This document shows positions 19,870 through 53,325 of a stretch of DNA of 64,000 nt, one piece after another. The notes under the pieces were generated by a model. The model made no database searches and was not told where the DNA came from. It saw nothing but the letters and a program-made list of their open reading frames with translations. Source of the stretch: a virus; IMG/VR virus record IMGVR_UViG_3300030118_007055, positions 20,210 through 84,209 of that record. One strand, 5' to 3'. The position numbers and the translations under genes were made by a program. The number at the start of each line of letters is the position of its first letter. Positions within the stretch are counted from its first letter, which is position 1.

Positions 19870-20324
19870 ATTTTAGCGACGTATGTTTCTGAGTCTTTTA
19901 CAAAACCCATTTTTTTATAAAAATTACATATTTTTTCAAACTTATCTGACTTACAAACGGCAGACATACTAACATATTCAAACTCTTGTTTTTTAGCAAA
20001 TTCTAATGCTTTAGCTAGCAATTTAAAGCTTGCTTTTGGGTTATTAGATATCCAAGCATATTCTACAAATATTTTTTTTGCAAACTTTTCACTCTTATGG
20101 TTCATGAAAGATATAACTGCATCATAATTGCCATCGGTATTTAAATTAGCCCAAACAAAAAAATCCCATAATAAAACTTTACTGTTAGCGTAAGATGACA
20201 TGATTGATTCTATATCATGTGGAAAAAACTGATGGAACCCATCCTGATCTTTTTCTCCAAATAAATTATAAATATCTCGTGCGACCTTTCGAAATTTATC
20301 AGGGTTTGTGATCCTCTCTATCAT
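19866..20324 (-). CDS. GNAT-family N-acetyltransferase-like protein
   Basis: 152 residues. The C-terminal third has the GNAT layout: FAKKIFVEYAWISNNPKASFKLLAKALEFA resembles the V/A strand and helix that carry the acetyl-CoA pyrophosphate loop, and KICNFYKKMGFVKDSETYVAKI is the classic last helix and strand (xFYxKxGF). The Q/RxxGxG/A loop is degenerate, so acetyl-CoA binding needs proof. The substrate is unknown; phage GNATs can modify host proteins, virion proteins or amino sugars. It meets its upstream gene at a TAATG junction. Confidence 0.65.
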   Translation of the reverse strand: MIERITNPDKFRKVARDIYNLFGEKDQDGFHQFFPHDIESIMSSYANSKVLLWDFFVWANLNTDGNYDAVISFMNHKSEKFAKKIFVEYAWISNNPKASFKLLAKALEFAKKQEFEYVSMSAVCKSDKFEKICNFYKKMGFVKDSETYVAKI

Positions 20325-40002: not shown

Positions 40003-40914
40003 TTACTTATGATTAATATATCTTTTATTATAAGTTTTTCTAATGCCTTCCTCTAAAGATTTAAAAGTAAATGTCGGAAATTTTTGTAAAAACTTTTTTG
40101 AACAAGCATCTTTACGAATTTGGCCATCAGGCTTGCTTGTGTCCCAAACTATTTCCAAATCATTAACATCTAAAGATTTCATAGCTATTGCTGCTATTTC
40201 TCTAATATAATGATTTTCAGGGTTACATACATTGTAAAGAAATGGACGCTGTTCATTTATTAATAATGAAATAGCTTTAGCTAAATCATCAGCATACATA
40301 AACTGTCTAAAAACACACCCTGTTCCAAAAAGAGTAATTTGTTTATGATCGTTAACTTTAGCTTGATGTATTTTGTGTATCAAACTTGATACAAAATGAG
40401 CTTTATCTCCTTCAAAATGATCATGTTCAGAGTATAAATTACATGGTATTACAGAACTATAATTAGTTCCGTATTGTTTGTTATATGCGTCGATTTGCAC
40501 TGACATAGATCTTTTTGCGTATCCGTATGCAAAATTACTTTTGGTTGGCGGCCCTGAATGCAATTGATCTTCCGTCAACGGATAATTCGTTACATGATCA
40601 GGATATATGCAAGTGCTTAAAACTGATATTAAGTTTTTGCATCCACTTTGATAAGCATATCTTATAACGTTTGTATTTATTAAAACATTATCATCAAAAA
40701 AAGTGGCGGGATTGTTTATATTATCCATTATACCGCCAACTTTAGCAGCTAAATGTATTATCAGATCTGGTTTTAAATCATTAAAAAGATTTTTAACTAA
40801 TTTTTGATCTGTTAAATCACAATCTTTACTAGAAAGATATATTGCATCTGGTAGGTATTGTTTTAAATGTTTACCCACCATACTAGAGCCTCCTGTAACT
40901 AAAATTTTACTCAT
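40003..40914 (-). CDS. fcl: GDP-L-fucose synthase homologue
   Basis: 303 residues. TGGSSMVGKHL binds NADP, AAKVGGI is the family motif, STCIYP carries the epimerase cysteine C102, Y130-x3-K134 is the SDR pair, and DKAHFVSSLI carries the second epimerase residue H173. With both C and H retained, 3,5-epimerisation and 4-reduction of the keto sugar are expected. Its start is 8 nt inside the isomerase gene. Together with gmd it makes GDP-fucose unless the substrate is GDP-heptose. Confidence 0.9.
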   Translation of the reverse strand: MSKILVTGGSSMVGKHLKQYLPDAIYLSSKDCDLTDQKLVKNLFNDLKPDLIIHLAAKVGGIMDNINNPATFFDDNVLINTNVIRYAYQSGCKNLISVLSTCIYPDHVTNYPLTEDQLHSGPPTKSNFAYGYAKRSMSVQIDAYNKQYGTNYSSVIPCNLYSEHDHFEGDKAHFVSSLIHKIHQAKVNDHKQITLFGTGCVFRQFMYADDLAKAISLLINEQRPFLYNVCNPENHYIREIAAIAMKSLDVNDLEIVWDTSKPDGQIRKDACSKKFLQKFPTFTFKSLEEGIRKTYNKRYINHK

Positions 40915-41521
40915 TTATAGGATCTCTCACTAAGGGTTGAGAAAGGTTTTTTCTAATCACTTCTTGTTTTATACTTGGGCATTCAGCTCCTAAGTCATGT
41001 ATTAAATCATAAAAAAGAATTAAACTTAAAACTTCAACCGTATGAAAGTACTTACAATTCAAATTAATCTCATTTACAGCGTCTTCCAAAATACCTCTTG
41101 ACTGTCCAGAGATCATTGCTGTTTTAAAATTATTTTCTAAAGCCCAGTGACAACATGATATCACATTTTTAGAACTTCCTGAACAAGATAATCCTATTAT
41201 CATGGATTTTTTACTCATTTTGCCGCTATTTTTTTGCAATTCAAGCCATCTTAAAAATAAATGATTATACCCGTAATCATTAGCTATGCTAGTCATTAAA
41301 CATTGACTTTCCATAGCGCTAACTGATTTTTTAATTCCTGCTTTTACAAAAAGTCTAGTGCAATCGTCAGCAGCGTGATTAGCTACCGCCCACAAACCTC
41401 CATTTGCGACTAAGTATATGTCATCGCTTTTTTTAAAATCTTCAGTTAATTTTTTCCACTCAAGGCTATTAAGAGTCGTATCAAATTTATTTTCTATATT
41501 TTCAAAATCAATATGCCTCAT
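40907..41521 (-). CDS. gmhA: SIS-domain phosphosugar isomerase, GmhA-like
   Basis: 204 residues. The SIS fold is seen in VANGGLWAVANHAADDCTRLF (phosphate-binding strand-loop-helix, as in GNGGSAxxAxHxAxD of GmhA), then MIIGLSCSGSSKNVI, the serine-rich phosphosugar loop, and the closing HTVEVLSLILFYDLIHDLGAE. GmhA converts sedoheptulose 7-phosphate to D-glycero-manno-heptose 7-phosphate. Sedoheptulose is a transketolase product, and a transketolase pair is in the same island, so a heptose route is possible. Kinase and guanylyl transferase steps are not seen. Confidence 0.75.
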   Translation of the reverse strand: MRHIDFENIENKFDTTLNSLEWKKLTEDFKKSDDIYLVANGGLWAVANHAADDCTRLFVKAGIKKSVSAMESQCLMTSIANDYGYNHLFLRWLELQKNSGKMSKKSMIIGLSCSGSSKNVISCCHWALENNFKTAMISGQSRGILEDAVNEINLNCKYFHTVEVLSLILFYDLIHDLGAECPSIKQEVIRKNLSQPLVRDPINE

Positions 41522-42680: not shown

Positions 42681-43053
42681 GCGACATAAGATCTTTCATA
42701 CAATTTTTCCAACTTTCAAATCTAAATGATTTGTCATCTACATAAAATACAGCCCTTGGTTTTTCTGAAGTTACGCTAGTAACAAAACAATCTAATTTAT
42801 ATTTTTTTAACCAGTCCCAAATCAACTCATCTCCTGTTTTATTGTTGATAAGCATGCGGTCTTTCCTAGCTTTTGCGCTAAAAATTATTATTTGATACTT
42901 CTCAGATAGCTTTTTTAAAGCATCGTAAACGCCCTCCACTGGTTCGTCATATACAGTCCCATCATAAAAACCTTTTGAATTTTTATGAATTACTCCGTCA
43001 AAATCTATTCCAACTTGATATGTTTCGTCAGGAAATGAGTGTTCTCTAATCAC
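42667..43053 (-). CDS. HAD-superfamily phosphatase
   Basis: 128 residues. GIDFDGVIH contains the nucleophile motif DxDGV (motif I), IIIFSAKAR is motif II with Ser, and VFYVDDKSF is motif IV with two aspartates. The cap is minimal, as in KdsC, GmhB or phage polynucleotide 3'-phosphatases. In this context it may remove phosphate from a sugar phosphate before activation by the CMP-sugar synthetase encoded next to it. Overlaps of 8 and 14 nt with neighbours support coordinated expression. Confidence 0.75.
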   Translation of the reverse strand: MIREHSFPDETYQVGIDFDGVIHKNSKGFYDGTVYDEPVEGVYDALKKLSEKYQIIIFSAKARKDRMLINNKTGDELIWDWLKKYKLDCFVTSVTSEKPRAVFYVDDKSFRFESWKNCMKDLMSHEFI

Positions 43054-44179
43054 TTGAATCAGCTGGGTAAATGTGATTAATATCTTCTCTGTTTACGGCT
43101 AATCTTATAGACTGTTCAGATCCTATAGCAGTTATTTTATGGTGTTTATATCGCTCAATAAATACAATATCGCCTTGTTTTACAGTCATAGTTTCGCCAT
43201 CAACAAACCACTCCCATTCACCTTTTACTATGTACCACCACTCATCCCAGTCACTATGATAGTGTAAACGATTTCCCTCTCCAGGCATTTGCGCTATGAG
43301 CGTAACACAAGTTGATTTAGAGTTTATTAATGTATGAGACCAAAACTTATCTTTTGGATTATTATCTATTATTTGTTTTATAGAAGCTACATCTTTATTA
43401 AAATTATCCATGTTGTTATTATCCGTAACACCATCCTCTAATAAAACTCTTAATCTATCATTATCATAAACTTCTCCAGCTTGATAATATTGCACTTTAA
43501 AATTTTCTTTTGATTTTAGATAACGAGCAGTTATCTCAGCTAATTGAAAATCCTCCTCAGTGTCTATGTCTATAGTAGAGTAACCTTTTAAGGTAAAATA
43601 TCCAACTTTGCCATCTCCCCCATGATAAGCCGCGTTATATTTTTTCATATTTTCTAAAAAATTAGACTTATCCCAACCCATTAAAGAGCAAGCGTAAGTT
43701 TTTATAGGTTCTAATTCTTGAGACGGAGGCGTTACTTTTTGTTTATCAAAGTTTATAGAAGTGCCTTGATACAGAGACTCTATTTGTTGATCAACAGTGG
43801 AAATTAAAGTGTCATAATTATCCATTTCTGAAATAAAGTTTTTTATTTCTTTTACTGTTATAAATGGTGAAGTAGGTAGAATTTGAATTAGTTTATGGCA
43901 ATCTACATTTTGTAAAAAATCTTCAGCAAAATGATCATTTGTTTTATCGTCCTCTGATAGATATTCAGGTCTATGATAAAACTTAATTTTATATTTTTCT
44001 GCTATTTCTTTAAATATCAAAGACTCTGAGTTTAAGTAAATTTCATCAAAGCATTCAGATTGTATGGCTACCTCTATAGCGTAAGCTACTAAAGGTTTAT
44101 CATTTAAAATCCTTAGATTTTTTTTTGTAATTCTTTTGCTGCCGAGTCTGGCAGGTATCATAGCTACTAATTTACTCAT
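43046..44179 (-). CDS. CMP-sugar synthetase (NeuA-like) fused to a C-terminal cupin
   Basis: 377 residues. Residues 1-225 form a cytidylyltransferase of NeuA type: MIPARLGSKRITKKNLRIL (nucleotide-binding loop), LPTSPF and DIDTEEDF, giving activation of a sialic, legionaminic, pseudaminic or Kdo-like acid with CTP. Residues about 230-377 are a cupin with motif 1 around NRLHYHSDWDEWW (H306, H308, E313) and motif 2 at KQGDIVFIERYKHHKI (H346, H347). The cupin could epimerise or isomerise the acceptor sugar, or regulate the enzyme. The fusion is unusual. The next gene is a GT29-type transferase, which uses CMP-sugars. Confidence 0.8.
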   Translation of the reverse strand: MSKLVAMIPARLGSKRITKKNLRILNDKPLVAYAIEVAIQSECFDEIYLNSESLIFKEIAEKYKIKFYHRPEYLSEDDKTNDHFAEDFLQNVDCHKLIQILPTSPFITVKEIKNFISEMDNYDTLISTVDQQIESLYQGTSINFDKQKVTPPSQELEPIKTYACSLMGWDKSNFLENMKKYNAAYHGGDGKVGYFTLKGYSTIDIDTEEDFQLAEITARYLKSKENFKVQYYQAGEVYDNDRLRVLLEDGVTDNNNMDNFNKDVASIKQIIDNNPKDKFWSHTLINSKSTCVTLIAQMPGEGNRLHYHSDWDEWWYIVKGEWEWFVDGETMTVKQGDIVFIERYKHHKITAIGSEQSIRLAVNREDINHIYPADSSD

Positions 44180-45026
44180 TGCTCAAAAACTTTTCTTTTA
44201 AATAATCGTCTAAGTATAAAGGATTTAAATGATATTTTCTAATAATTTTTTTGAAATAATTTATTTGGGGCTTTTGAACATGTATGTCAGACCGAGATGC
44301 GCGAGCATCTACAAGTCTATCAGGATTCCAAGATCCATAAGTGTCTCCAGTCGCCGCTTTGATTGAATCATAATATTCATCAAAATAAACATTGCCCCAT
44401 TTATCCATATCAAAAAATGTCATGCCCGTTAAAAAAAGTTCCTCTATTTTGTAATTTAGTAATACAATTAAACTTGCAAAACCCGTGTTGCATATTGTTC
44501 CTACTTCTTTAAATATTTTAAATAGATAACCATCACAAACATTATGATAAGGAACTCCAGTAGCATCAAACCATTTATTTTGTTCGTTTAAATCCCACAT
44601 TGATAACATTGGACAAACTAAAAGTTTTAAGCTTTTTATATAATCTTTATTTTGATTACACTCCCACACGTTTAAATGATTAAAGCTGCCAAACATAATA
44701 TCAGTCTTACTTCCAAAGTCTTTATATTTGTTTTCTGGTATGGCGAATTTTTGATTTAATCTAATTACAATATCATAAGAATCTATTTTTTCTCCATAGT
44801 TTAAACCCTCTAAATGTGGAGATGGACCCACAACAGCTATTTTTTTACCTTCAATTAATTTAGCTAAATTTTGATCTTTTTCATAATCTTTAAAGTCTCC
44901 AACAAAACCTTTAGATTTCAAATCTGACAACTGATCCTCTGGCATTGGCGTACTAGATTGCCACTCATTAACATTTTTTTTAAGGGGTATGCCTATTATA
45001 TTTTTTTTTAGATTTTTACTCCACAT
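44172..45026 (-). CDS. GT29 (sialyltransferase)-like glycosyltransferase
   Basis: 284 residues. KKIAVVGPSPHLEGLNYG and IDSYDIVIRLNQ (61-92) match sialyl motif L (VGNS..l...yG..ID..d.viR.N). NTGFASLIVLLNYKIEELFL and TGMTFF (180-205) match sialyl motif S (.StG...l..al..c.ev...Gf). GT29 enzymes transfer sialic acid from CMP-Neu5Ac and are best known from animals, with some bacterial and viral members. The gene overlaps the CMP-sugar synthetase gene by 8 nt, which makes a donor-transferase pair. The acceptor is unknown. Confidence 0.78.
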   Translation of the reverse strand: MWSKNLKKNIIGIPLKKNVNEWQSSTPMPEDQLSDLKSKGFVGDFKDYEKDQNLAKLIEGKKIAVVGPSPHLEGLNYGEKIDSYDIVIRLNQKFAIPENKYKDFGSKTDIMFGSFNHLNVWECNQNKDYIKSLKLLVCPMLSMWDLNEQNKWFDATGVPYHNVCDGYLFKIFKEVGTICNTGFASLIVLLNYKIEELFLTGMTFFDMDKWGNVYFDEYYDSIKAATGDTYGSWNPDRLVDARASRSDIHVQKPQINYFKKIIRKYHLNPLYLDDYLKEKFLSNE

Positions 45027-45036
45027 AATATTAAAT

Positions 45037-45876
45037 TTAAAATTTGCAATTGCATGTTTCTTTAAAAAACTTTAAGGTTTCATTATTAAAACATTCGTTT
45101 GTAAAAAAATCAATACCTCTCTGCATTTCCTCATCGCTACAAACACCCCAGCCTTGACAATAATGCCAAACTTTTATTTGTTTGCTTTTTGATATATATT
45201 CATGTGTGCTAGTAAAAAGTTTATTGTTAATGACTTTATATTTTTTAATATATTTAGCCCAAGGTAATGAGTTAGGTTGAGCTACAAAGTTTCCTTTTGA
45301 TCTAACGTTATAAACTACATCTGAATTTTTAAAATCCCCATCGACCGTTTTGTTTTTAAATCCAGTCAACACACTCGTTCGATTACAAATAATGTTTAAA
45401 GCTGCTTGTTCTTGATAAGTAAATTTATTTTCATTCCAAAGACGTAATAAATAACTTAGACTGTCTTTATTGTTAAAGCAAACTACATCTGCATTAACGT
45501 GATTTTCGCTAGTAGATACTGCAAGATTGTTAACTTGTAGATCATACGGATAATCTAATGTCGTCAAAATATCATGAGTGTTATCATTTAAAAATTCATG
45601 TAATCTGGAGCATGTTATTGTATCTGCCCCTAAAATAATTAATTTATCTAAATTTTTATTTTCAAGAAGCAAATAACCTAAACCATATTTAAACGGTCCA
45701 GCTGGAATATTTTTTCTCATTGTTTTTTTAGCGAACTTTATAAACTCACAGTCGCTAGTATAATCAAAAGAATACATTTCTACATCTGGATGAAATGCAG
45801 TGAAACTATTTACCGCATTGTCATGTAAATTTTTAAATTTTTTATGGTCAGAATATATTAGACAGCCTACTTTCAT
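45037..45876 (-). CDS. Glycosyltransferase, GT-A fold (GT8-like)
   Basis: 279 residues. A first strand MKVGCLIYSDHKKF, DKLIILGADTITC (metal and nucleotide binding, with GADT in place of DxD), NADVVCFNNK, YQEQAALNII (as in DQ.ALN of GT8) and VWHYCQGWG, supplying the late histidine. The pattern fits retaining GT8-type enzymes. Donor and acceptor cannot be told. The gene overlaps the SDR gene upstream by 4 nt. Confidence 0.6.
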   Translation of the reverse strand: MKVGCLIYSDHKKFKNLHDNAVNSFTAFHPDVEMYSFDYTSDCEFIKFAKKTMRKNIPAGPFKYGLGYLLLENKNLDKLIILGADTITCSRLHEFLNDNTHDILTTLDYPYDLQVNNLAVSTSENHVNADVVCFNNKDSLSYLLRLWNENKFTYQEQAALNIICNRTSVLTGFKNKTVDGDFKNSDVVYNVRSKGNFVAQPNSLPWAKYIKKYKVINNKLFTSTHEYISKSKQIKVWHYCQGWGVCSDEEMQRGIDFFTNECFNNETLKFFKETCNCKF

Positions 45877-46646
45877 TGATTTTTAATTTGCTTAAATGTT
45901 TTCTTTAATCCTTTTTTTAAACCTAAAACTTTTACAGGTAAATCAATTTTTGGACCAATGTAATGATCATAACTATAACTTTCAACTTCTATTTTTGATT
46001 TAAAATCGCTTATTGAATTTATAAAGTTAGCCACATTAAAAAGAGTAAGTTTGTCTTTATAGCAACAATCTATCTCTTTTTTTGGGTTTTTTGATTCAAT
46101 GTAATATTCAACTAAGGAGCATAAATCAGGCATATAGATGTAATCCATCATTTTGTTGTTGAATATAGATATTTTTTCTTTGGCTAAATTAGACTTTATA
46201 GATCGTTTTATAAATTTAGTTTCTGGCTCATTTTCATCAAACACTCCATAGATTCTAAGGTCATAAAAATTCTCTGTTTCATGAATAAAATTATTAATTA
46301 ATTTTTTACTCAACCCATAATACTTAGGTTGTAATGTAAATTGCGCTCCTGATCCAAAGTTAAGTAACTTGCCAAAATTTTTTTTATTTTTTAATATATT
46401 TAAAAATATATTAATATTACTTTTTAAACAGTTTATGTTGTCAGGATATACTCTGTTGCCACCTACTATGGCTGAATGTATTACTACATCATAAAATGAT
46501 TTATTAAAAAATTCATCAGTTTTCACTGTATTCTCTAATGAAAAGTCCTCTCTACCAATGGCAGTAACTTCATGCTTGGCAGAAAGATATTTTCTCAGCT
46601 CAGTGGCTATATATCCAGATTTTCCAGTTATAAGAATTTTTTTCAT
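45873..46646 (-). CDS. NAD(P)-dependent sugar epimerase/reductase (SDR)
   Basis: 257 residues. TGKSGYIATEL is the Rossmann glycine motif, VIHSAIVGGNR the active-site strand, LNFGSGAQF and Y-G-L-S-K the serine and Tyr-x3-Lys residues. It is short for an extended SDR and resembles the terminal 4-ketoreductases such as RmlD or Tyv-like enzymes. It may reduce or epimerise the 4-keto sugar made by the dehydratase two genes upstream. Its end overlaps the GT8-like gene by 4 nt. Confidence 0.7.
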   Translation of the reverse strand: MKKILITGKSGYIATELRKYLSAKHEVTAIGREDFSLENTVKTDEFFNKSFYDVVIHSAIVGGNRVYPDNINCLKSNINIFLNILKNKKNFGKLLNFGSGAQFTLQPKYYGLSKKLINNFIHETENFYDLRIYGVFDENEPETKFIKRSIKSNLAKEKISIFNNKMMDYIYMPDLCSLVEYYIESKNPKKEIDCCYKDKLTLFNVANFINSISDFKSKIEVESYSYDHYIGPKIDLPVKVLGLKKGLKKTFKQIKNQ

Positions 46647-47113
46647 TTAGATAAGTTTAAATATGCTGGTTCAGGCTTATTTAAAAAGTTATCAAAAGTT
46701 TTTTTATCTAAAGAATCAGGTTTAAACCTTTTTATATTTTTAAAGTTTTTTAATATTTTTAAATCATCCTCAGCCCAATGAGAAAAACCTAAATTACCGT
46801 AATCTTTATCTCTACCACCTCCTATTAATTTTACTGGCATCTTTTCATGATCAATATAATTTCTTATAAATTCAAAAGGTCTGTACAGTAAAAAAGGAGT
46901 TATTGAATAACAGATCGGTATTTTTTGTTCCATGCACATGCCTACTGCTGCGCCAATCATAAGTTGCTCTGATGAGCCAAAGTCATAAAATCTATCTGGA
47001 TAATCTATTTTTATTTGATCCCAAAGCCCATAACCTAAATCAGCTGTTAAAAGCTGAATGTTATGATCTGTGGCCATTGCCTCATGTAACATTATTGCAA
47101 ATTTTTTTCTCAT
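46643..47113 (-). CDS. Transketolase-like subunit, pyrimidine-binding (C-terminal) part
   Basis: 156 residues. LTADLGYGL and FGSSEQLMIGAAVGM contain the glutamate that activates thiamine diphosphate (the E in SEQ), and FLLYRPFEFIRN matches the F-x-R-x-x-x-x-I-R segment of transketolase and DXS. The C-terminal third domain is absent. It overlaps the other subunit by 4 nt. Two-gene transketolases transfer two-carbon units; in glycan loci they are linked to branched or higher-carbon sugars. Confidence 0.82.
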   Translation of the reverse strand: MRKKFAIMLHEAMATDHNIQLLTADLGYGLWDQIKIDYPDRFYDFGSSEQLMIGAAVGMCMEQKIPICYSITPFLLYRPFEFIRNYIDHEKMPVKLIGGGRDKDYGNLGFSHWAEDDLKILKNFKNIKRFKPDSLDKKTFDNFLNKPEPAYLNLSK

Positions 47114-47721
47114 ATGGATTTGTAATCATTTTCTGACATTATGTGATAATGCCCATTGAGACCTTTTAAAAATTTGTACTTATCGACTTTTGTTTCTATG
47201 ATTTTTATGCTTGGTAAGAAAGCTTTTAGTCTATCCCTTAAATAAGCTTGATCAACTGTGTTGTAAGCGCAATATCCATTACAGTTAACATATACATGTA
47301 TATTTTGTATGTTCTTTTCTTTGATGCATTTTAATGACTCCCAGACAGACCCTTCAGCGGCCTCTCCATCACTTATAAGAACATAATAATTTTTATTTTT
47401 ATTAACTAGCGCCCTGCCTACAGCAACAGTAATACCCATGCCTAAACTTCCTGTAGAGCAATGAATTCCATATTTTAAATTTCTGTGTGGATGGCCACCT
47501 AATTGATTGAATAAAGTTTCCGCACATTGAAACTCAAAATGCTCCAATACAACATAAAGAGCTAAAGCTGCATGACCAGAAGACAATATAAAAACATCAT
47601 TTTTATTTTTATTTAAATAAATATTATAAATTATAGGTAAAGCAGTTAAACAAGAAGTGAGGTGGCTTATTTTGTATTTATAAGCTATGTCTAAAAGTCT
47701 ACGCTCTAATTTTTTTACCAT
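47110..47721 (-). CDS. Transketolase-like subunit, thiamine diphosphate-binding (N-terminal) part
   Basis: 203 residues. FILSSGHAALALYVVL holds the HA motif; HPHRN and CSTGSLGMGITVAVGRAL are the usual transketolase strands; and SDGEAAEGSVWESL with VYVNCNGY form the thiamine diphosphate motif (G/S-DG...N-x-N). Together with the next gene it makes a complete transketolase catalytic core. Possible donors are sedoheptulose, xylulose phosphates or pyruvate-like ketoses. Links to the GmhA-like isomerase (sedoheptulose) are an inference. Confidence 0.82.
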   Translation of the reverse strand: MVKKLERRLLDIAYKYKISHLTSCLTALPIIYNIYLNKNKNDVFILSSGHAALALYVVLEHFEFQCAETLFNQLGGHPHRNLKYGIHCSTGSLGMGITVAVGRALVNKNKNYYVLISDGEAAEGSVWESLKCIKEKNIQNIHVYVNCNGYCAYNTVDQAYLRDRLKAFLPSIKIIETKVDKYKFLKGLNGHYHIMSENDYKSI

Positions 47722-48659
47722 ATGAATTTATTATTATAATAATCTATAATTTTTGGTAATTCATCGTCAAAAACCGCCTCTGGAGACCATCCTAACTTTT
47801 TAATTTTATCATCGTTGAGGGCATATCTCATATCTTGGCCATCTCTATCATATGAAAAGTCTGCGTGGTCCTCTACTGACCCCTTATCCAAATGATTTAA
47901 TATTTTTTGGAAAACTGTATAATTTCTCTCTTCAAAAGATCCAGCTATATTATATATTTGATTGTAAGCTCCTACATCAATAATTTTCATGACTGCTGAG
48001 GCTGTATCTTTAGCATGTAGCCAATTTCTCACTGGTAAACCCTTGTTATGTAAAGGCAGTTTTCTTTTTAAGTGTATGTATTTACAAGCTTTAGGTATTA
48101 ATTTTTCAACATACTGACCCATGCCATAATTGTTTGTAGGTCTAACTATTACGTAGGAGATTTGATGGGTTCGTTGCCAAGCCATTATTAGCATATCAGC
48201 TGCTGCTTTAGTTGCTGAATATGGGTTACTTGGTATTAAAGGATCTGTCTCTAAGTGTTCTCCCCTGTTAATATCCCCGTATACTTCATCAGTGCTAAAA
48301 TGTATTAAGATAGGTTTTTTAGAAGTTTCTTGCCTATAGTTTTTTAGTAATTTCAATAAATTATGGACACCATTTATATTAGATGAAATAAAATCATCGC
48401 TATTTGATATGGAGTTACCAACATGAGTTTCAGCTGCCGTGTTGATTACATAATCACACTCATATAAAAATTTTAAATCATTTATATCAGACTTAACAAA
48501 AGAAAATCTTTCATTTAATTTAAACTCTTCAAGTAGATCTTTATTTGATGCGTAAGAGCATTTATCAACACCCTTAACAAAATAACCTTTTTGTAAACAT
48601 GCTCGTGTTATGTACGAGCCTATAAATCCTAAACAGCCAGTGATATAAACTACTTTCAT
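47715..48659 (-). CDS. rfbB: NDP-glucose 4,6-dehydratase (RmlB/RfbB type)
   Basis: 314 residues. TGCLGFIGSYI binds NAD, HFSTDEVYGD holds the T-D-E triad (123-125), NPYSATKAAAD the Tyr147 and Lys151 pair, and RPTNNYG and DRDGQDMRYALNDDKIKKLGW are RmlB signatures. It yields an NDP-4-keto-6-deoxy sugar. The neighbouring RfbH homologue needs the CDP version, so the nucleotide may be CDP or dTDP; sequence by eye favours the RmlB branch. It overlaps the transketolase subunit gene by 7 nt. Confidence 0.88.
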   Translation of the reverse strand: MKVVYITGCLGFIGSYITRACLQKGYFVKGVDKCSYASNKDLLEEFKLNERFSFVKSDINDLKFLYECDYVINTAAETHVGNSISNSDDFISSNINGVHNLLKLLKNYRQETSKKPILIHFSTDEVYGDINRGEHLETDPLIPSNPYSATKAAADMLIMAWQRTHQISYVIVRPTNNYGMGQYVEKLIPKACKYIHLKRKLPLHNKGLPVRNWLHAKDTASAVMKIIDVGAYNQIYNIAGSFEERNYTVFQKILNHLDKGSVEDHADFSYDRDGQDMRYALNDDKIKKLGWSPEAVFDDELPKIIDYYNNKFIW

Positions 48660-48662
48660 TGT

Positions 48663-49994
48663 TCAAATTTTTGAGAAAAACTCATCTATTCTATCTCCTA
48701 TATAATTCATTTGCTCTTCTGTTATTCCAGGGTAGACACCCATAAAGAAAGTGTCTCTTGTGCTTCTAGTTGCGACAGGAAAATCTTCTATAGGATTATC
48801 ATACTTCTGTGCAAACTTGGAATACGCAGGGTGCAATAACGCATTTCCAGTAAAATATGATCTTGTTTGTATTTTTGAATCTTCTAAAAAATTCACTAAA
48901 TCCTGCTTCTTAAAAGGCGCATTTTCTTTTACAGTAACTAGGTAGCCAAACCATGAAACATCTGCTTTTTCATGCTTTACTGGTAAATGTAAATACTCAG
49001 AATATTTTGAAAGTGAGTTAGTAAGTTTTTCAAAATTCTTCTTCCTAGCAGAATGCATGTAATCTAATTTATCTAATTGAGCTAAACCCATCGCCGCTTG
49101 CATCTCAGTAGGTTTTAAATTATATCCTATCTCAGTGAATACATATCTATGATCATAGATTATTTCTTTGCAGTCTTTAAACCAAGAATTAAATCTATTA
49201 CCACAAGCTGTGCCGCAGGTGACATCCCCAGGTTTTTTAGCATTGCAATAACATGCTCTACCCCAATCTCTAAGGGAAGCTAAAGCATTTCTATGAATTC
49301 GATTATTGGTTGCAACAAAACCCCCCTCTCCCATCGTCATGTGGTGCGCTGGAAAAAAAGAACAAGTTGAAACATCACCAAAAGATCCTAAAGGATCTCC
49401 ATTCCATGTAGACCCTAGGGCATCACAAGAGTCCTCTAAAAATATTAAATTATATTTTTTAATTATCTCCATTAGTCTATCCATGTCAGGTGGATTTCCT
49501 AAAACGTGTGCAAAAGTAATACCTTTTATGTCTTTATCTTTTTCTAAAATTTCTTCTACTTTATCTAAATTTAAATTAAGATTTGGAATCTCTACATCTA
49601 CAAAAATAGGTTCAAATCCATTTTGTATTAAAGGATTTATAGTAGTGGGAAAACAAACAACTGGCGTTATGAATTTACTGCCTTCTGGCAAAGAACCTCC
49701 TCGTTTAGTTTTAAGTAAAGAAGCCATAAGCAAATTGGCAGAACTTCCAGAATTTACTAAAACGCCATCAGCCTTGCCTAAATATTTTGCAAATTTTTGT
49801 TCAAATTCTCTGCCTTTTTTACCTAATATAAACCATCCCTCTAGTAAAGATTTTATAGCATTTATATATTCATTGGAATCAAAAGTTGGGCCAGAGTATT
49901 GAACCCAATCCTCACCAGCAACCCATTTAGGTTTTTCTTTTGCGTCAATATATTCTTTTACTAAGTCTAATATTTGTTCCATAATTTTCTCCAC
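48663..49994 (-). CDS. rfbH: RfbH-type 3-dehydrase (PMP and 2Fe-2S)
   Basis: 443 residues (ATG at 49982 is an alternative start). The DegT/aminotransferase fold has SFFPAHHMTMGEGG, where His218 replaces the PLP lysine, as in the 3-dehydrase E1 of 3,6-dideoxyhexose synthesis. A cysteine cluster (C248, C250, C260, C264) in the same place as the iron-sulfur site of E1 makes RfbH more likely than ColD. E1 removes the 3-hydroxyl of an NDP-4-keto-6-deoxyhexose. The reductase partner E3 (RfbI/AscD) is not in the window; the host may supply it. Confidence 0.88.
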   Translation of the reverse strand: MEKIMEQILDLVKEYIDAKEKPKWVAGEDWVQYSGPTFDSNEYINAIKSLLEGWFILGKKGREFEQKFAKYLGKADGVLVNSGSSANLLMASLLKTKRGGSLPEGSKFITPVVCFPTTINPLIQNGFEPIFVDVEIPNLNLNLDKVEEILEKDKDIKGITFAHVLGNPPDMDRLMEIIKKYNLIFLEDSCDALGSTWNGDPLGSFGDVSTCSFFPAHHMTMGEGGFVATNNRIHRNALASLRDWGRACYCNAKKPGDVTCGTACGNRFNSWFKDCKEIIYDHRYVFTEIGYNLKPTEMQAAMGLAQLDKLDYMHSARKKNFEKLTNSLSKYSEYLHLPVKHEKADVSWFGYLVTVKENAPFKKQDLVNFLEDSKIQTRSYFTGNALLHPAYSKFAQKYDNPIEDFPVATRSTRDTFFMGVYPGITEEQMNYIGDRIDEFFSKI

Positions 49995-50695
49995 TTGCTT
50001 TGAATTATGCTGTCATAAGAAATTGTTTTTCTATGCATTTCCCATGTAGATTGTTTTTCATTTATTCCGTAATAGTAGCCTATAAACTCGTTTATATTAT
50101 GTATATAAATGTTTTTATCTAAAAGTTTAAAATAAAATTCATAATCAGCAGCCCCACTATAAAGCTCAGGCTCCCTTTTTAAAGTTTTATCTTTAAAAAT
50201 ATCAATATGATAAAATACTGAAGGTGTATTTACATAACAGCCCGTTAGCATTTTTGATTTTAAATCTTCAATATCTAAATATTGATGTCTTGTTTTTTGA
50301 ATTGCTTGATTATCTCTAATCCATACTAAATCAGATTGAGCACATAGTATAGTTTTTTTTTGTGTTTTAACCCAGCCACAAAAGCTAGAGATGTAAGTTT
50401 CAGCTATAAAATCATCAGAGCCTACAATTGTGTAATAATCGCCATCTAAATAATCAAAAGCTTTCTGTAAACACTCGTCCCAGCATTGAGGATATATGTT
50501 TTTAGCTTGATCTATTATATAATCTTTATTACCTGATGACAAGATTTCTCTAGCTATGTCCAAACTTTTATCAGTGCTTTCGTTATCAATAAAAATTATT
50601 TTATAATCTTTATGATCTTGATTTATACAACTATCCAAGCACCTTGATAAAAACTCAGCTTTGTTAAAATTTGGTATAATTACATTAACCCGCAT
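49967..50695 (-). CDS. GT2 family glycosyltransferase
   Basis: 242 residues. VNVIIPNFNKAEFLSRCLDSCI and KIIFIDNESTDKSLDI are the classic GT2 N-terminal strands, and YTIVGSDDFI contains the DxD metal site. No membrane segments follow, so it is a soluble enzyme that transfers one sugar. It shares a 28-nt overlap with rfbH and an 11-nt overlap with the gene before it. Confidence 0.88.
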   Translation of the reverse strand: MRVNVIIPNFNKAEFLSRCLDSCINQDHKDYKIIFIDNESTDKSLDIAREILSSGNKDYIIDQAKNIYPQCWDECLQKAFDYLDGDYYTIVGSDDFIAETYISSFCGWVKTQKKTILCAQSDLVWIRDNQAIQKTRHQYLDIEDLKSKMLTGCYVNTPSVFYHIDIFKDKTLKREPELYSGAADYEFYFKLLDKNIYIHNINEFIGYYYGINEKQSTWEMHRKTISYDSIIQSKWRKLWNKY

Positions 50696-51584
50696 AATTT
50701 AAAAGTTGGTTAACTCTGCAAAAGTACGTATGATTATCTTTAATGTGTTCAATGTTTTTTGATTTAATACTGCAAACATCCTGATTTAAATAGTCTGAAG
50801 CGTATTCACAAAGTATTTCAGGATCATTAGAGGTTTTACAATCTGGAAAATATTTATCTATCTGAGCATTTTCATCACTAACTAATAACCCATTTATACC
50901 TAAAGATTTAAAAGTTCTCTCATTAGCGTCTAATTTTAAAACTCTTTGATATTTATCATGTATATTCAAAGCTATTTTAGAATTTTTCATTATATAGTTT
51001 TCTTGCTCATGACTAATATTTTGGCCAACTGAAAAAGCACAATTAAATTTTTTATTCAAAAATGCCGTTAATGTTTCATTCATGATTTGAATTTTCTCAT
51101 TAAATCCATTATCAGCATAACCTCCAACAAAGCATATATCATATTTAAAATCTTTTGTGTTTGGATCTACAGATTGATATTTAAGGTCATCAAAAGCTAA
51201 AGGCACAGTCCTTACATTTTGCCAAATATTATAATACTCCTGTTTTACTTCACTAAATGTCCATTTAACAACATTAGTAAACTGATTAATTTTTTCGATA
51301 GTTTTTGCTGGTAAAGAGCAAACAAAATTAGGATGCAACCCCCAAGGCTTTGGAAAAGAATTTGACGAACAAAACAAAAAACAATTTTTGCTTTTTTCTA
51401 TGTGTTTTAAATTACTTTCCGTGGCCCATGAATCAGTGATCATTAACAAATATTCAGCAGAATCTATTTCGTCTAACGACTTTATAAATTTTGCTTCAAA
51501 CCCCTTTTTAACCCAAGCTCTATAATAACCATTATATATCCAATGGCCAGCGTGACTTGGATGGTCTTGAATATAAACTATCAC
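50685..51584 (-). CDS. CgeB-like GT-B glycosyltransferase
   Basis: 299 residues. YDICFVGGYADNGF and the later NSKIALNIHDKY...LDANERTFKSLGINGLLVSD are the pattern of the C-terminal half of CgeB/GT1-like proteins (S.i.lN......R.fE..a.G..lls). It probably adds a sugar in the same pathway as its two neighbours. ATGA-type overlaps link it to the upstream gene. Substrate unknown. Confidence 0.7.
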   Translation of the reverse strand: MIVYIQDHPSHAGHWIYNGYYRAWVKKGFEAKFIKSLDEIDSAEYLLMITDSWATESNLKHIEKSKNCFLFCSSNSFPKPWGLHPNFVCSLPAKTIEKINQFTNVVKWTFSEVKQEYYNIWQNVRTVPLAFDDLKYQSVDPNTKDFKYDICFVGGYADNGFNEKIQIMNETLTAFLNKKFNCAFSVGQNISHEQENYIMKNSKIALNIHDKYQRVLKLDANERTFKSLGINGLLVSDENAQIDKYFPDCKTSNDPEILCEYASDYLNQDVCSIKSKNIEHIKDNHTYFCRVNQLLNYAG

Positions 51585-52486
51585 AGTTTATCTAAAATGT
51601 TTTTTAATCTAATTTTTGAAGTATGCTCTTTCAAAAATCTTTCATAGCCTTTTTTAGCAATCGACTCTCTTTCAAAATCATTTTCTATATAATAAGCTAT
51701 TTTATTTAGAGCTTCTTCTTTTGTTTTAAAAGTTACTATTTCTTTCTCTAGCTCAAATAAATCTTCTAAGCCATCTACATATTCTGTAATTAATAAAGAT
51801 CCTGAGCAAACAGCTTCAAAAATCCTTAACTTCATTTGAGCTTTTTTATCAGCATCGTTATTGTTAACTGTTAAATTAAAAACTATCTTAGATGAGCCGT
51901 ATATTCTAAATATATCTTCATAAGAAACTCCATAAAAATTAGTAAGCGGCGCACCATTACATTTTAAATAATTAAAAATATCAGATCTACTTTCAGTGAT
52001 GCCTCCACAAAAACCCACGCCAATTTTTTTTTCGCAATCTAATCTTAAAGATTCATTGCAATGCCAATTGCCTAGAATAATATTTTTATATCCTATATCT
52101 TTATATTTTTTTAAATACTTTTTTTCTGGTGTTGTGCAGTATGTAAATTTATTACAAACCTGTTTATTAAATGAATCAAATCTCCAAGTATCATCACAAA
52201 ACCAATTTAAAGTTTTTACTTTACCTTGTTTAGTAATTTGTTCTATTATGTCTAAAGGTTCGTGTGGGGCCACTGAAGGATTACCAGTCAAGCAACTTAG
52301 TATTAAGTCAGGAGCGAATGAATCTACTATTTGTAGAAAATTATTTTTATCTCCTTTGACTGTATCATAAAATAATACATTATGGCCCAATTCTAAAAGT
52401 GGTATGTAAAAATTAAAATAACCAGCATCAAAAAGATTTTGACCATTTCTGTTTAATGTTTTGTTATATACTAAAATTATTTTCAT
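51581..52486 (-). CDS. CgeB-like GT-B glycosyltransferase
   Basis: 301 residues from MKIILVYNK; the ATG at 52486 makes an ATGA overlap with the preceding gene, which favours it over an ATG four codons upstream. DLILSCLTGNPS is the N-domain end; VGFCGGITESRSDIF and KIVFNLTVNN...MKLRIFEAVCSGSLLITEY, then FKTKEEALNKIAYYI, are typical CgeB/Glyco_trans_1_2 motifs. It resembles the gene that follows it, and the two may have arisen by duplication, though identity is low by eye. Confidence 0.75.
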   Translation of the reverse strand: MKIILVYNKTLNRNGQNLFDAGYFNFYIPLLELGHNVLFYDTVKGDKNNFLQIVDSFAPDLILSCLTGNPSVAPHEPLDIIEQITKQGKVKTLNWFCDDTWRFDSFNKQVCNKFTYCTTPEKKYLKKYKDIGYKNIILGNWHCNESLRLDCEKKIGVGFCGGITESRSDIFNYLKCNGAPLTNFYGVSYEDIFRIYGSSKIVFNLTVNNNDADKKAQMKLRIFEAVCSGSLLITEYVDGLEDLFELEKEIVTFKTKEEALNKIAYYIENDFERESIAKKGYERFLKEHTSKIRLKNILDKL

Positions 52487-53325
52487 ATCTTGCTCCAAAA
52501 ATTTGATGCTGCGGTTTCACAGCGTTGTTTAAATTCATCATACCCTACTTCTTGAAACTCTAAGTAAGAGCCTATTTTGTTTACGTCGCCTACTATTTCT
52601 TCAACTCCACACAATAACGCCTCCCCCACCATTCTGCAAAAAGGCTCATTTACAATAGGCGAGTGATAAAGTGCCTTTGATTGTTTAAAAACTTGAGCTA
52701 TTTCTTCATGAGATTTTAAACCTAAATATTCAACATTTTCCATACCATTAAAAAAATTAGAACAATCGCCATCGCTCCAGCCAAAAACACTTATTTTTCT
52801 ATCTTCATTTTTTTGAGCAAATGCTTTTAAATTATCTAATCCTTTAAGTGGATGTAAATATCCACAATAAACTATGTCATATATTTTTTCAGTGTCATCT
52901 TTGTTAAAAATTTTAGTATCAATAGGGTCATATACTATTTCAACATTTGTAAAATAATCTCCATATAAATCCTTAAAAAACGAATGATGGAATTTACTTA
53001 AAAAAAAGTTTTTTTTAGAACTGGTAAATATATGCGCTCTAGTTCTAGTGTCTAAATATGAGCATGAATCGTGCTCTAATCTAACTTTTTCAGGCACATT
53101 CTTTAAAAATTCTATTTTTGCAGGGTTTGTTTTATTTATTAATTCTAAATTAGAATGTATAACTAAATCATAAGAACTTAAAAAGTCTGTTATTGAAGAT
53201 GAATAGTGATGCTCAATAATTTCATGGCCTAGACTTCTACCCTGTTCAATTATAATTTGGTTACTGACCTGCGCTCCACCTTTTCTTTGTTTTAAAGTGA
53301 AATCTGATACAAATAATATTTTCAT
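52483..53325 (-). CDS. GT4-like GT-B glycosyltransferase
   Basis: 280 residues. Starts with KILFVSDFTLKQRKGGAQ, the GG loop of GT-B enzymes. VYDPIDTKIFN is the usual linker strand, YDIVYCGYLHPLKGLDNL the start of the donor domain (vG.l...KG...l), and HSPIVNEPFCRMVGEALLCG the E-x7-E donor motif. It is the first of the island glycosyltransferases after the structural protein gene, 19 nt downstream of that gene's stop. Confidence 0.8.
   Translation of the reverse strand: MKILFVSDFTLKQRKGGAQVSNQIIIEQGRSLGHEIIEHHYSSSITDFLSSYDLVIHSNLELINKTNPAKIEFLKNVPEKVRLEHDSCSYLDTRTRAHIFTSSKKNFFLSKFHHSFFKDLYGDYFTNVEIVYDPIDTKIFNKDDTEKIYDIVYCGYLHPLKGLDNLKAFAQKNEDRKISVFGWSDGDCSNFFNGMENVEYLGLKSHEEIAQVFKQSKALYHSPIVNEPFCRMVGEALLCGVEEIVGDVNKIGSYLEFQEVGYDEFKQRCETAASNFWSKI

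Follow-up and report, generated by a model that had tools for sequence, protein, structure and literature searches.

A five-gene cassette in a tailed phage

The DNA analysed here, a stretch of 64,000 nucleotides referred to as the window, covers positions 20,210 to 84,209 of IMGVR_UViG_3300030118_007055, an uncultivated virus record of 84,209 bases. Its genes for lambda-J-like and minor-tail proteins, a DnaB-like helicase, a UvsX-like recombinase and a ribonucleotide reductase indicate that the virus is a tailed phage. On the minus strand, five consecutive genes encode an RfbH-type 3-dehydratase, an RmlB-like 4,6-dehydratase, the two subunits of a compact transketolase and a short-chain dehydrogenase/reductase (SDR). 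With this cassette the phage probably encodes its own route to a branched 3,6-dideoxy sugar, similar to that of yersiniose but with the transketolase in place of YerE. The genes of the cassette and of its transcription unit are as follows.

48663..49994, minus strand: RfbH/DdhC (E1)-type 3-dehydratase using pyridoxamine phosphate (PMP) and an iron-sulfur cluster, 443 amino acids (aa); first gene of the cassette
47715..48659, minus strand: RmlB-like nucleoside diphosphate (NDP)-glucose 4,6-dehydratase, 314 aa
47110..47721, minus strand: compact transketolase PP subunit (TKpp), binding thiamine diphosphate (ThDP) and Mg, 203 aa; Transketolase_N, E 1.3e-9
46643..47113, minus strand: compact transketolase pyrimidine-binding (PYR) subunit (TKpyr), 156 aa, without C-terminal domain; Transket_pyr, E 8.7e-13
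45873..46646, minus strand: extended SDR reductase, the fifth gene; Epimerase PF01370, E 3.8e-12
49967..50695, minus strand: family-2 glycosyltransferase; Glycos_transf_2, E 1.6e-17; many relatives have a gene of this type ahead of the cassette
50685..51584, minus strand: glycosyltransferase-like gene of the cassette's transcription unit; PF13524, E 4.4e-9; relatives lie upstream of the cassette elsewhere
51581..52498, minus strand: glycosyltransferase-like gene of the cassette's transcription unit, named from its neighbours; relatives lie beside the cassette in other viruses

Read along the minus strand, the glycosyltransferase-like genes (52498 to 49967) come first, followed by RfbH, RmlB-like, PP, PYR and SDR. 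The overlaps amount to 28 bases (glycosyltransferase/RfbH), 7 bases (RmlB-like/PP) and 4 bases each (PP/PYR and PYR/SDR), and a gap of 3 bases separates RfbH from the RmlB-like gene. Since the genes overlap by a few bases or sit 3 bases apart, they are very likely co-transcribed; an earlier note on this DNA had considered that they might not be, and their tight packing speaks against it. The family-2 glycosyltransferase at 49967-50695 is the probable user of the sugar. The same note had described four open reading frames in 46643-49994, and these (Transket_pyr, Transketolase_N, 4,6-dehydratase type and RfbH, all on the minus strand) are exactly as it described them.

RfbH, the RmlB-like dehydratase and the SDR

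The window RfbH scores 456.8 bits against NF011936 (NCBIfam), above the curated cut-off of 423, and its best match in the Protein Data Bank is CDP-4-keto-6-deoxyglucose 3-dehydrase (3bcx/3bb8, E 1.5e-102). As previously noticed, a histidine replaces the lysine that would bind pyridoxal phosphate: the motif PAHHMT (His217-His218) aligns with that of the E1 dehydrase 3bcx and is kept in 47 of 48 sequences, the remaining one having a gap. The cysteine cluster reported with it is also conserved. Its four residues, spaced C190-X57-C248-X1-C250-X13-C264, fit a [2Fe-2S] cluster; C190 is found in 47 of the 48 sequences (one gap) and the other three in all 48. In E1 the spacers are X57, X1 and X7, so that the last one is longer in the window RfbH.

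The 4,6-dehydratase reaches 295.3 bits with TIGR01181 and just 73.5 with TIGR02622 (CDP-glucose type); because the former score falls below the curated cut-off of 365.1, we call the protein RmlB-like only. Its STDEVYG and YSAxK (NPYSATK) motifs are conserved at 90% or more across 59 viral sequences; TDE represents dehydratase residues and YxxxK is likewise functional. In the SDR, the SGA and YGxSK motifs are conserved across 72 sequences. The proposed role of this protein, whose gene adjoins the transketolase pair in most viral loci, is reduction of the keto group on the newly added branch.

A compact transketolase on two genes

Structural models of both subunits were compared with solved proteins. 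The PP model (predicted local distance difference test score, pLDDT, 91.4) found its best match in the split transketolase 6yak (Z 22.1, root-mean-square deviation (rmsd) 2.2, 203 residues aligned); human transketolase scored Z 20.7, and the first 1-deoxy-D-xylulose-5-phosphate synthase (DXPS) came at Z 18.6. The PYR model (pLDDT 90.4) matched DXPS with Z 22.1 (rmsd 2.1, 154 aligned) and the split transketolase 6yaj with Z 20.5 (rmsd 2.1, 150 aligned). By sequence search, the split transketolase was the top match for both subunits.

The ThDP motif of the PP subunit, SDG-E...N-G, is invariant or nearly so among 88 viral sequences. It had earlier been read as GDG; the first position is in fact Ser in 87 of the 88, and D118, G119, E120 and N148 occur in all of them. 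The catalytic Glu49 of the PYR subunit is present in 87 of 87 viral sequences, every one of which is 149-176 aa long. With such lengths, the C-terminal domain must be missing throughout the viral PYR subunits. This agrees with its absence from the window protein, where only positions 5-141 of the 174 of Transket_pyr are matched; a bacterial full-size relative of 305 aa does have Transketolase_C. Judged from its motifs and predicted models, the pair is a split-gene transketolase in fold, with adjacent genes, the ThDP motif and the catalytic Glu. A protein search in named phages returned weak transketolase matches only; they came from 16 of 50,697 records and in no case extended over 80% of the query.

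Conservation of the cassette among viruses

Three viral scans together with the window gave 158 loci with a PP gene, reduced to 88 by dropping those with TKpp identity of 95% or more. Of these, 72 extend at least 6 kb on each side and are referred to as wide loci; the PYR scan was confined to 80 of 114 matches. It should be noted that virus records may be fragments. Individual loci are designated L followed by a number.

PP, PYR and SDR are contiguous in most of the 88 loci. The SDR, overlooked in the earlier note although its four genes stood, is present in 61 of the 72 wide loci and thus belongs to the set too. RmlB was found in 48 wide loci, and RfbH or a cysteine-free histidine-type relative accompanies it in 43 of these 48, compared with 4 of the 24 loci without RmlB (p 1.2e-9). 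Moreover, RfbH and RmlB precede the transketolase in 25 loci and follow it in 20, and in one locus they are split. Given that both orders occur, this pattern speaks for RfbH-RmlB and TKpp-TKpyr-SDR being two functionally bound blocks, not merely genes inherited together. No best match of the RfbG model was found near the 88 transketolase loci, and weak matches of the RfbF model lie near 3 of them, the window not being among these.

Four transketolase loci (L122, L065, L142 and L054) carry a gene of 386-389 aa directly upstream of TKpp. In L122 (6222-7388) the product of this gene, which adjoins the compact transketolase, ends in an RpiB ribose-5-phosphate isomerase domain, whereas its N-terminal part resembles a nucleotidyltransferase by eye; the genes in the same place in L065 and L142 are similar in size and start.

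Three types of carboligase exchange beside viral RfbH

A scan centred on RfbH, limited to the best 80 of 525 viral relatives, left 58 loci after dropping those with RfbH identity of 95% or more. A transketolase pair was found in 19, a YerE-like enzyme in 22 and an E1-type pair in 7; 11 had none of the three, several of them ending early. In none of the 58 do transketolase and YerE occur together (Fisher p 9.7e-6), nor do transketolase and the E1-type pair, and a single locus (L282) combines YerE with E1. The E1-type pair consists of compact E1 alpha and beta subunits of about 206 and 179 aa, whose nearest solved relatives are pyruvate dehydrogenase alpha. In two such pairs scanned, E1_dh was matched with E 4.9e-16 and 3.6e-14, and Transket_pyr with E 3.4e-4 (below its cut-off) and 5.7e-8. 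For the YerE-like enzyme, the best solved match is 8rph, which we take to be JanthE.

Carboligase types were then placed on a tree of 48 RfbH sequences, from which the 11 loci without carboligase were excluded and in which L282 was labelled YerE. The type changes at least 16 times, compared with a mean of 19.9 after shuffling, showing that near relatives of RfbH often differ in their carboligase; judged from well-supported branches alone, transketolase and YerE must each have changed at least 7 times. This is illustrated by three pairs of loci. The RfbH proteins of L305 and L320 are 94.8% identical, yet they are followed by TKpp-TKpyr and by an E1 pair, respectively, at the same 4-base overlap with RfbH. 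Those of L309 and L303 (95.0% identical) go with a transketolase and with YerE, one extra gene lying between and YerE being in two frames. L285 and L284 (93.7%) also differ in the occupant, the YerE gene of L284 lying elsewhere in the locus. The occupants match exactly the three ThDP superfamilies (decarboxylase, transketolase and alpha-keto acid dehydrogenase 2) which, among nine, use ketone acceptors according to the sections consulted of a review (PMC12247030). The earlier proposal that two carbons are added to a 3,6-dideoxy-4-keto sugar is thus supported, the swap in these gene neighbourhoods being an additional and independent argument.

A PanB-like ketopantoate hydroxymethyltransferase (Pfam) was detected in 7 of the 22 viral YerE loci (L260, L274, L275, L282, L287, L298 and L300; e.g., L287:6234-7172) and in none of the 36 other RfbH loci. 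Its product could be a hydroxylated 2-oxo acid that serves as donor, for instance 4-hydroxy-2-oxobutanoate, a donor of ErwE in the account given by parts of the same review (PMC12247030).

Cellular counterparts

Scanning bacterial and archaeal genomes with the PYR alignment yielded 36 loci, many from Patescibacteria and marine assemblies; some of the short marine contigs may be phage. In two phyla, RfbH exceeded a strict threshold in 36 of 398 genomes and in 17 of 299, respectively. Sixty bacterial RfbH regions contained RfbF in 37 cases, a YerE-like enzyme in 24, a split transketolase in 6 and the reductase E3 in 6. Seven of these loci come from three genomes chosen via transketolase matches; the 53 that remain without them hold RfbF in 32, YerE-like in 20, split transketolase in 4 and E3 in 6. 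In one bacterial locus, L202, the genes for E3, RfbF, an SDR dehydratase, RfbH, TKpp and a full-size TKpyr with C-terminal domain stand in a row, and since such counterparts exist the pathway is not a viral invention. The compact form of the transketolase, however, is typical of the viral and Patescibacteria-like branch.

Compact pairs were also seen in other company. In L183, L188, L189, L191 and L193, from Pelagibacteraceae, Planctomycetaceae, Opitutaceae and a Methanocellales assembly, a distant compact pair stands beside an alcohol-dehydrogenase-like protein (assigned by Pfam in L191 and by eye in the others), which suggests a second, different pathway. In L164, L165, L169, L173 and L177 (Patescibacteria, Omnitrophota, Elusimicrobia), the compact transketolase lies beside a Gmd-like SDR with no RfbH there; these loci have a gene of 304-328 aa in its stead, which in the one scanned (L164) encodes a methyltransferase.

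Electron supply of RfbH

The earlier note had pointed out an RfbH without its reductase. The genome search that it had recommended found no match for ferredoxin-reductase NAD (PF00175), [2Fe-2S] ferredoxin (PF00111) or flavodoxin (PF00258) domains in 16 virus records, namely the 84-kb record and 15 related ones, which may be fragments. No match of the E3 model was found in the 58 RfbH-centred viral loci, and a single weak one (56 bits) occurred at the transketolase locus L127. However, E3 lies within 8 kb of RfbH in just 6 of the 60 sampled bacterial loci. The missing E3 was therefore rejected as the peculiarity of this locus, since most bacterial RfbH loci likewise have none nearby. For the RfbH-related SpnQ, ferredoxin/ferredoxin reductase or flavodoxin/flavodoxin reductase pairs replace a dedicated E3, as described in the sections consulted of PMC8987622. 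Because bacterial loci mostly lack a nearby E3 and SpnQ is served by general reductases, the simple answer would be that host electron carriers serve the phage RfbH.

Other proteins related to this step or to its electron supply were observed. Near a YerE-type cassette, L284:4773-5930 encodes a protein of 385 aa with two CxxCxxC-type 4Fe-4S motifs (by eye), which might be an electron carrier for RfbH. L007:4816-5958 is a DegT-family protein, closest to the E1 dehydrase (E 5.5e-60), that keeps the RfbH histidine and has no iron-sulfur cysteines; similar proteins occupy the usual place of RfbH in L104, L039, L076, L008 and L023, and this type is possibly an iron-sulfur-free 3-dehydratase. ColD-like proteins, recognised by motif only (histidine, no cysteines), adjoin Gmd and Fcl in L005 (8832-9983), L016, L089, L008 and L078, which suggests that a GDP-linked 3,6-dideoxy sugar is made in parallel.

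Proposed pathway and alternatives

We infer the nucleotide, the donor, the branch position, the order of steps, the product and its final use as follows. RmlB would convert NDP-glucose, probably dTDP-glucose from the host, to NDP-4-keto-6-deoxyglucose, from which RfbH, with PMP, its [2Fe-2S] cluster and host electron carriers, would remove O3 to give NDP-3,6-dideoxy-4-ketoglucose. PP and PYR would together form a minimal ThDP enzyme. With a host ketose phosphate as donor, this enzyme would transfer a two-carbon ketol unit to the C4 ketone, and the resulting tertiary alcohol would bear a hydroxyacetyl branch. Reduction of this branch by the SDR would then yield 1,2-dihydroxyethyl, and the neighbouring glycosyltransferases would link the sugar to a glycan of the host or the virion. 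The transketolase is read as a carboligase acting on the RfbH product because of its parts and of its natural swap with YerE and E1, the strongest evidence available; moreover, catalytic residues intact across 48-88 divergent viral sequences support this pathway.

As a broader and more tentative proposal, to which we give slightly less than an even chance, the branching cassette would be exchangeable. It would comprise a fixed backbone (4,6-dehydratase, RfbH, branch reductase and glycosyltransferases) and one carboligase slot for transketolase, YerE or E1 types, and lineages would switch the occupant to alter the displayed or host sugar. The minimal transketolase of the window would lead to 3,6-dideoxy-4-C-(1,2-dihydroxyethyl)hexoses, for which we know of no report in surface glycans.

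Several observations weigh against the transketolase pathway. The exclusion of carboligases is not absolute, since the L082 record holds both a transketolase pair and YerE, and the transketolase loci L077 and L117 also hold an E1-type gene. The best 80 of 525 RfbH relatives are a sample leaning to close kin. In bacteria, the split transketolase is a minor partner of RfbH (4 of 53 loci, versus 20 with YerE-like enzymes, with no overlap), and the absence of any locus with both types among the 60 regions is not significant alone (p 0.07); here, the viral set was relied on. Furthermore, 24 of the 72 wide transketolase loci have no RmlB, and 20 of those 24 have no histidine-type dehydratase either, so the compact transketolase must work in other settings too. 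Finally, the likeness of the PYR subunit to DXPS in addition to transketolase leaves room for a pyruvate donor.

On the basis of this modelled fold, a pyruvate donor is the chief rival, although we consider it unlikely. The pathway would be the same, but the enzyme would decarboxylate pyruvate or another 2-oxo acid in the manner of DXPS or YerE, and the SDR would convert the resulting acetyl-type branch to hydroxyethyl as in yersiniose. DXPS is indeed ahead of the split transketolase 6yaj among solved matches of PYR. Moreover, the YerE and E1 types that occupy the same slot have 2-oxo acids as their known donors in the portions of the review consulted (PMC12247030). The PP subunit, by contrast, is closer to transketolases, and the sequence matches of both subunits are headed by the split transketolase, which speaks against this rival.

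Somewhat less probable still is a role of the transketolase in a separate sugar route, where it would make or consume a sugar phosphate (such as sedoheptulose 7-phosphate for a GmhA-like protein), while RfbH and RmlB make an unbranched 3,6-dideoxy sugar such as paratose or abequose. Such a division of labour would suit the GmhA-like gene in the same region of the window and the 386-389 aa genes upstream of TKpp, of which that of L122 has the isomerase domain. Yet GmhA-like genes are found in just 4 of the 158 transketolase loci, against 128 with an SDR and 114 with an RmlB best match, and a pentose-phosphate role leaves the exclusion of YerE and E1 from the slot unexplained. A general pentose-phosphate function of the pair is likewise disfavoured by gene context, from which the enzyme does not appear to belong to central carbon metabolism, a possibility that the earlier note had raised.

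It is improbable that the ThDP pair acts before RfbH, on the RmlB product (4-keto-6-deoxy, with O3 kept) or on another keto sugar, RfbH working later or for a different sugar. Five of the 48 RmlB-bearing wide loci (L078, L065, L105, L128 and L120) do lack a histidine-type dehydratase, and a transketolase-SDR pair may be present in a record that has no close RmlB: of 15 virus records checked as a whole, eleven gave a weak RmlB match or none, and a close one was found in the other four (at E 1e-113 or better in two, with 3.7e-113 and 1.8e-147 bracketing the rest). Nevertheless, the other 43 RmlB-bearing loci do have RfbH or its histidine-type relative, and it is around RfbH that the exclusion pattern is found. 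That the genes are a decaying host remnant or host contamination, with no function in the virus, can be dismissed almost entirely. Although the contig comes from an uncultivated virus, phage tail, DnaB-like helicase, recombinase and ribonucleotide reductase genes are present in the window, and the catalytic residues are intact in 87-88 sequences from many contigs.

Other sugar genes in the region

Positions 43046-44179 of the window encode a PseF-like cytidylyltransferase fused to a cupin domain, adjoined by a sialyltransferase-family-29-like protein (44172-45026); the GmhA-like protein lies further on (40907-41521). By their sequence similarities, these genes suggest a second sugar route in the region of the cassette.

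Significance and comparison with known systems

The notion, already in the earlier note, that split transketolases occur in branched-sugar loci is in print, although as a proposal lacking in vitro proof. The consulted parts of the 2025 review (PMC12247030) present transketolases with a ketone sugar acceptor as proposed from natural-product clusters, with no experimental proof, and all 13 candidates listed there come from Streptomycetes. Searches of open-licence papers found no description of a viral RfbH/transketolase cassette; extracts of PMC10653327 list rfbH/ddhC/ascC among marine viral metabolic genes and do not mention transketolase. The phage cassettes provide small two-subunit enzymes with a definite predicted substrate, which makes the claim of a ketone acceptor for transketolases directly testable, and nature supplies matched controls in which nearly the same RfbH is followed by YerE, an E1 pair or a transketolase. 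If the proposal is true, it would suggest that viruses remodel surface glycans by swapping one enzyme that forms a carbon-carbon bond. In addition, an RfbH without its own reductase loses its mystery.

To our knowledge, no branching enzyme follows SpnQ, which performs C3 deoxygenation in spinosyn synthesis. SpnQ is RfbH-like and uses general ferredoxin or flavodoxin reductases, but its substrate is a dTDP-2,6-dideoxy sugar (PMC8987622, in part). The alpha-keto acid dehydrogenase type 2 enzymes of aldgamycin, kibdelomycin and others are, in the sections cited of PMC12247030, ThDP enzymes that branch keto sugars; they belong to another ThDP superfamily that is absent from the window, a compact E1 pair filling the viral slot elsewhere.

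The split transketolase of Carboxydothermus (6yaj/6yak) has the same two folds on two genes, although its PYR subunit has 341 aa compared with 156 aa in the phage, which has no C-terminal domain, and its PP subunit 309 aa compared with 203 aa. The miharamycin and amipurimycin split transketolases share with the phage pair a proposed hydroxyacetyl transfer to a ketone sugar (PMC12247030, sections consulted). They belong to natural-product clusters, whereas the phage subunits are truncated, viral and located beside RfbH and RmlB.

The yersiniose pathway, in which CDP-3,6-dideoxy-4-ketoglucose is the substrate of YerE, is similar in its 4,6-dehydratase, its RfbH-type 3-dehydratase, its ThDP carboligase, its presumed branch reductase and its C4 ketone acceptor. 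There too the branch reductase is assumed, the step being still uncharacterised in the consulted part of a 2016 paper (PMC4753412). The two systems differ in that YerE is a flavoprotein and the phage enzyme a two-subunit transketolase, and in that RfbG corresponds to an RmlB-like dehydratase in the phage. The phage cassette, moreover, is without RfbF and E3, and its predicted branch is a two-carbon ketol where that of yersiniose is an acetyl.

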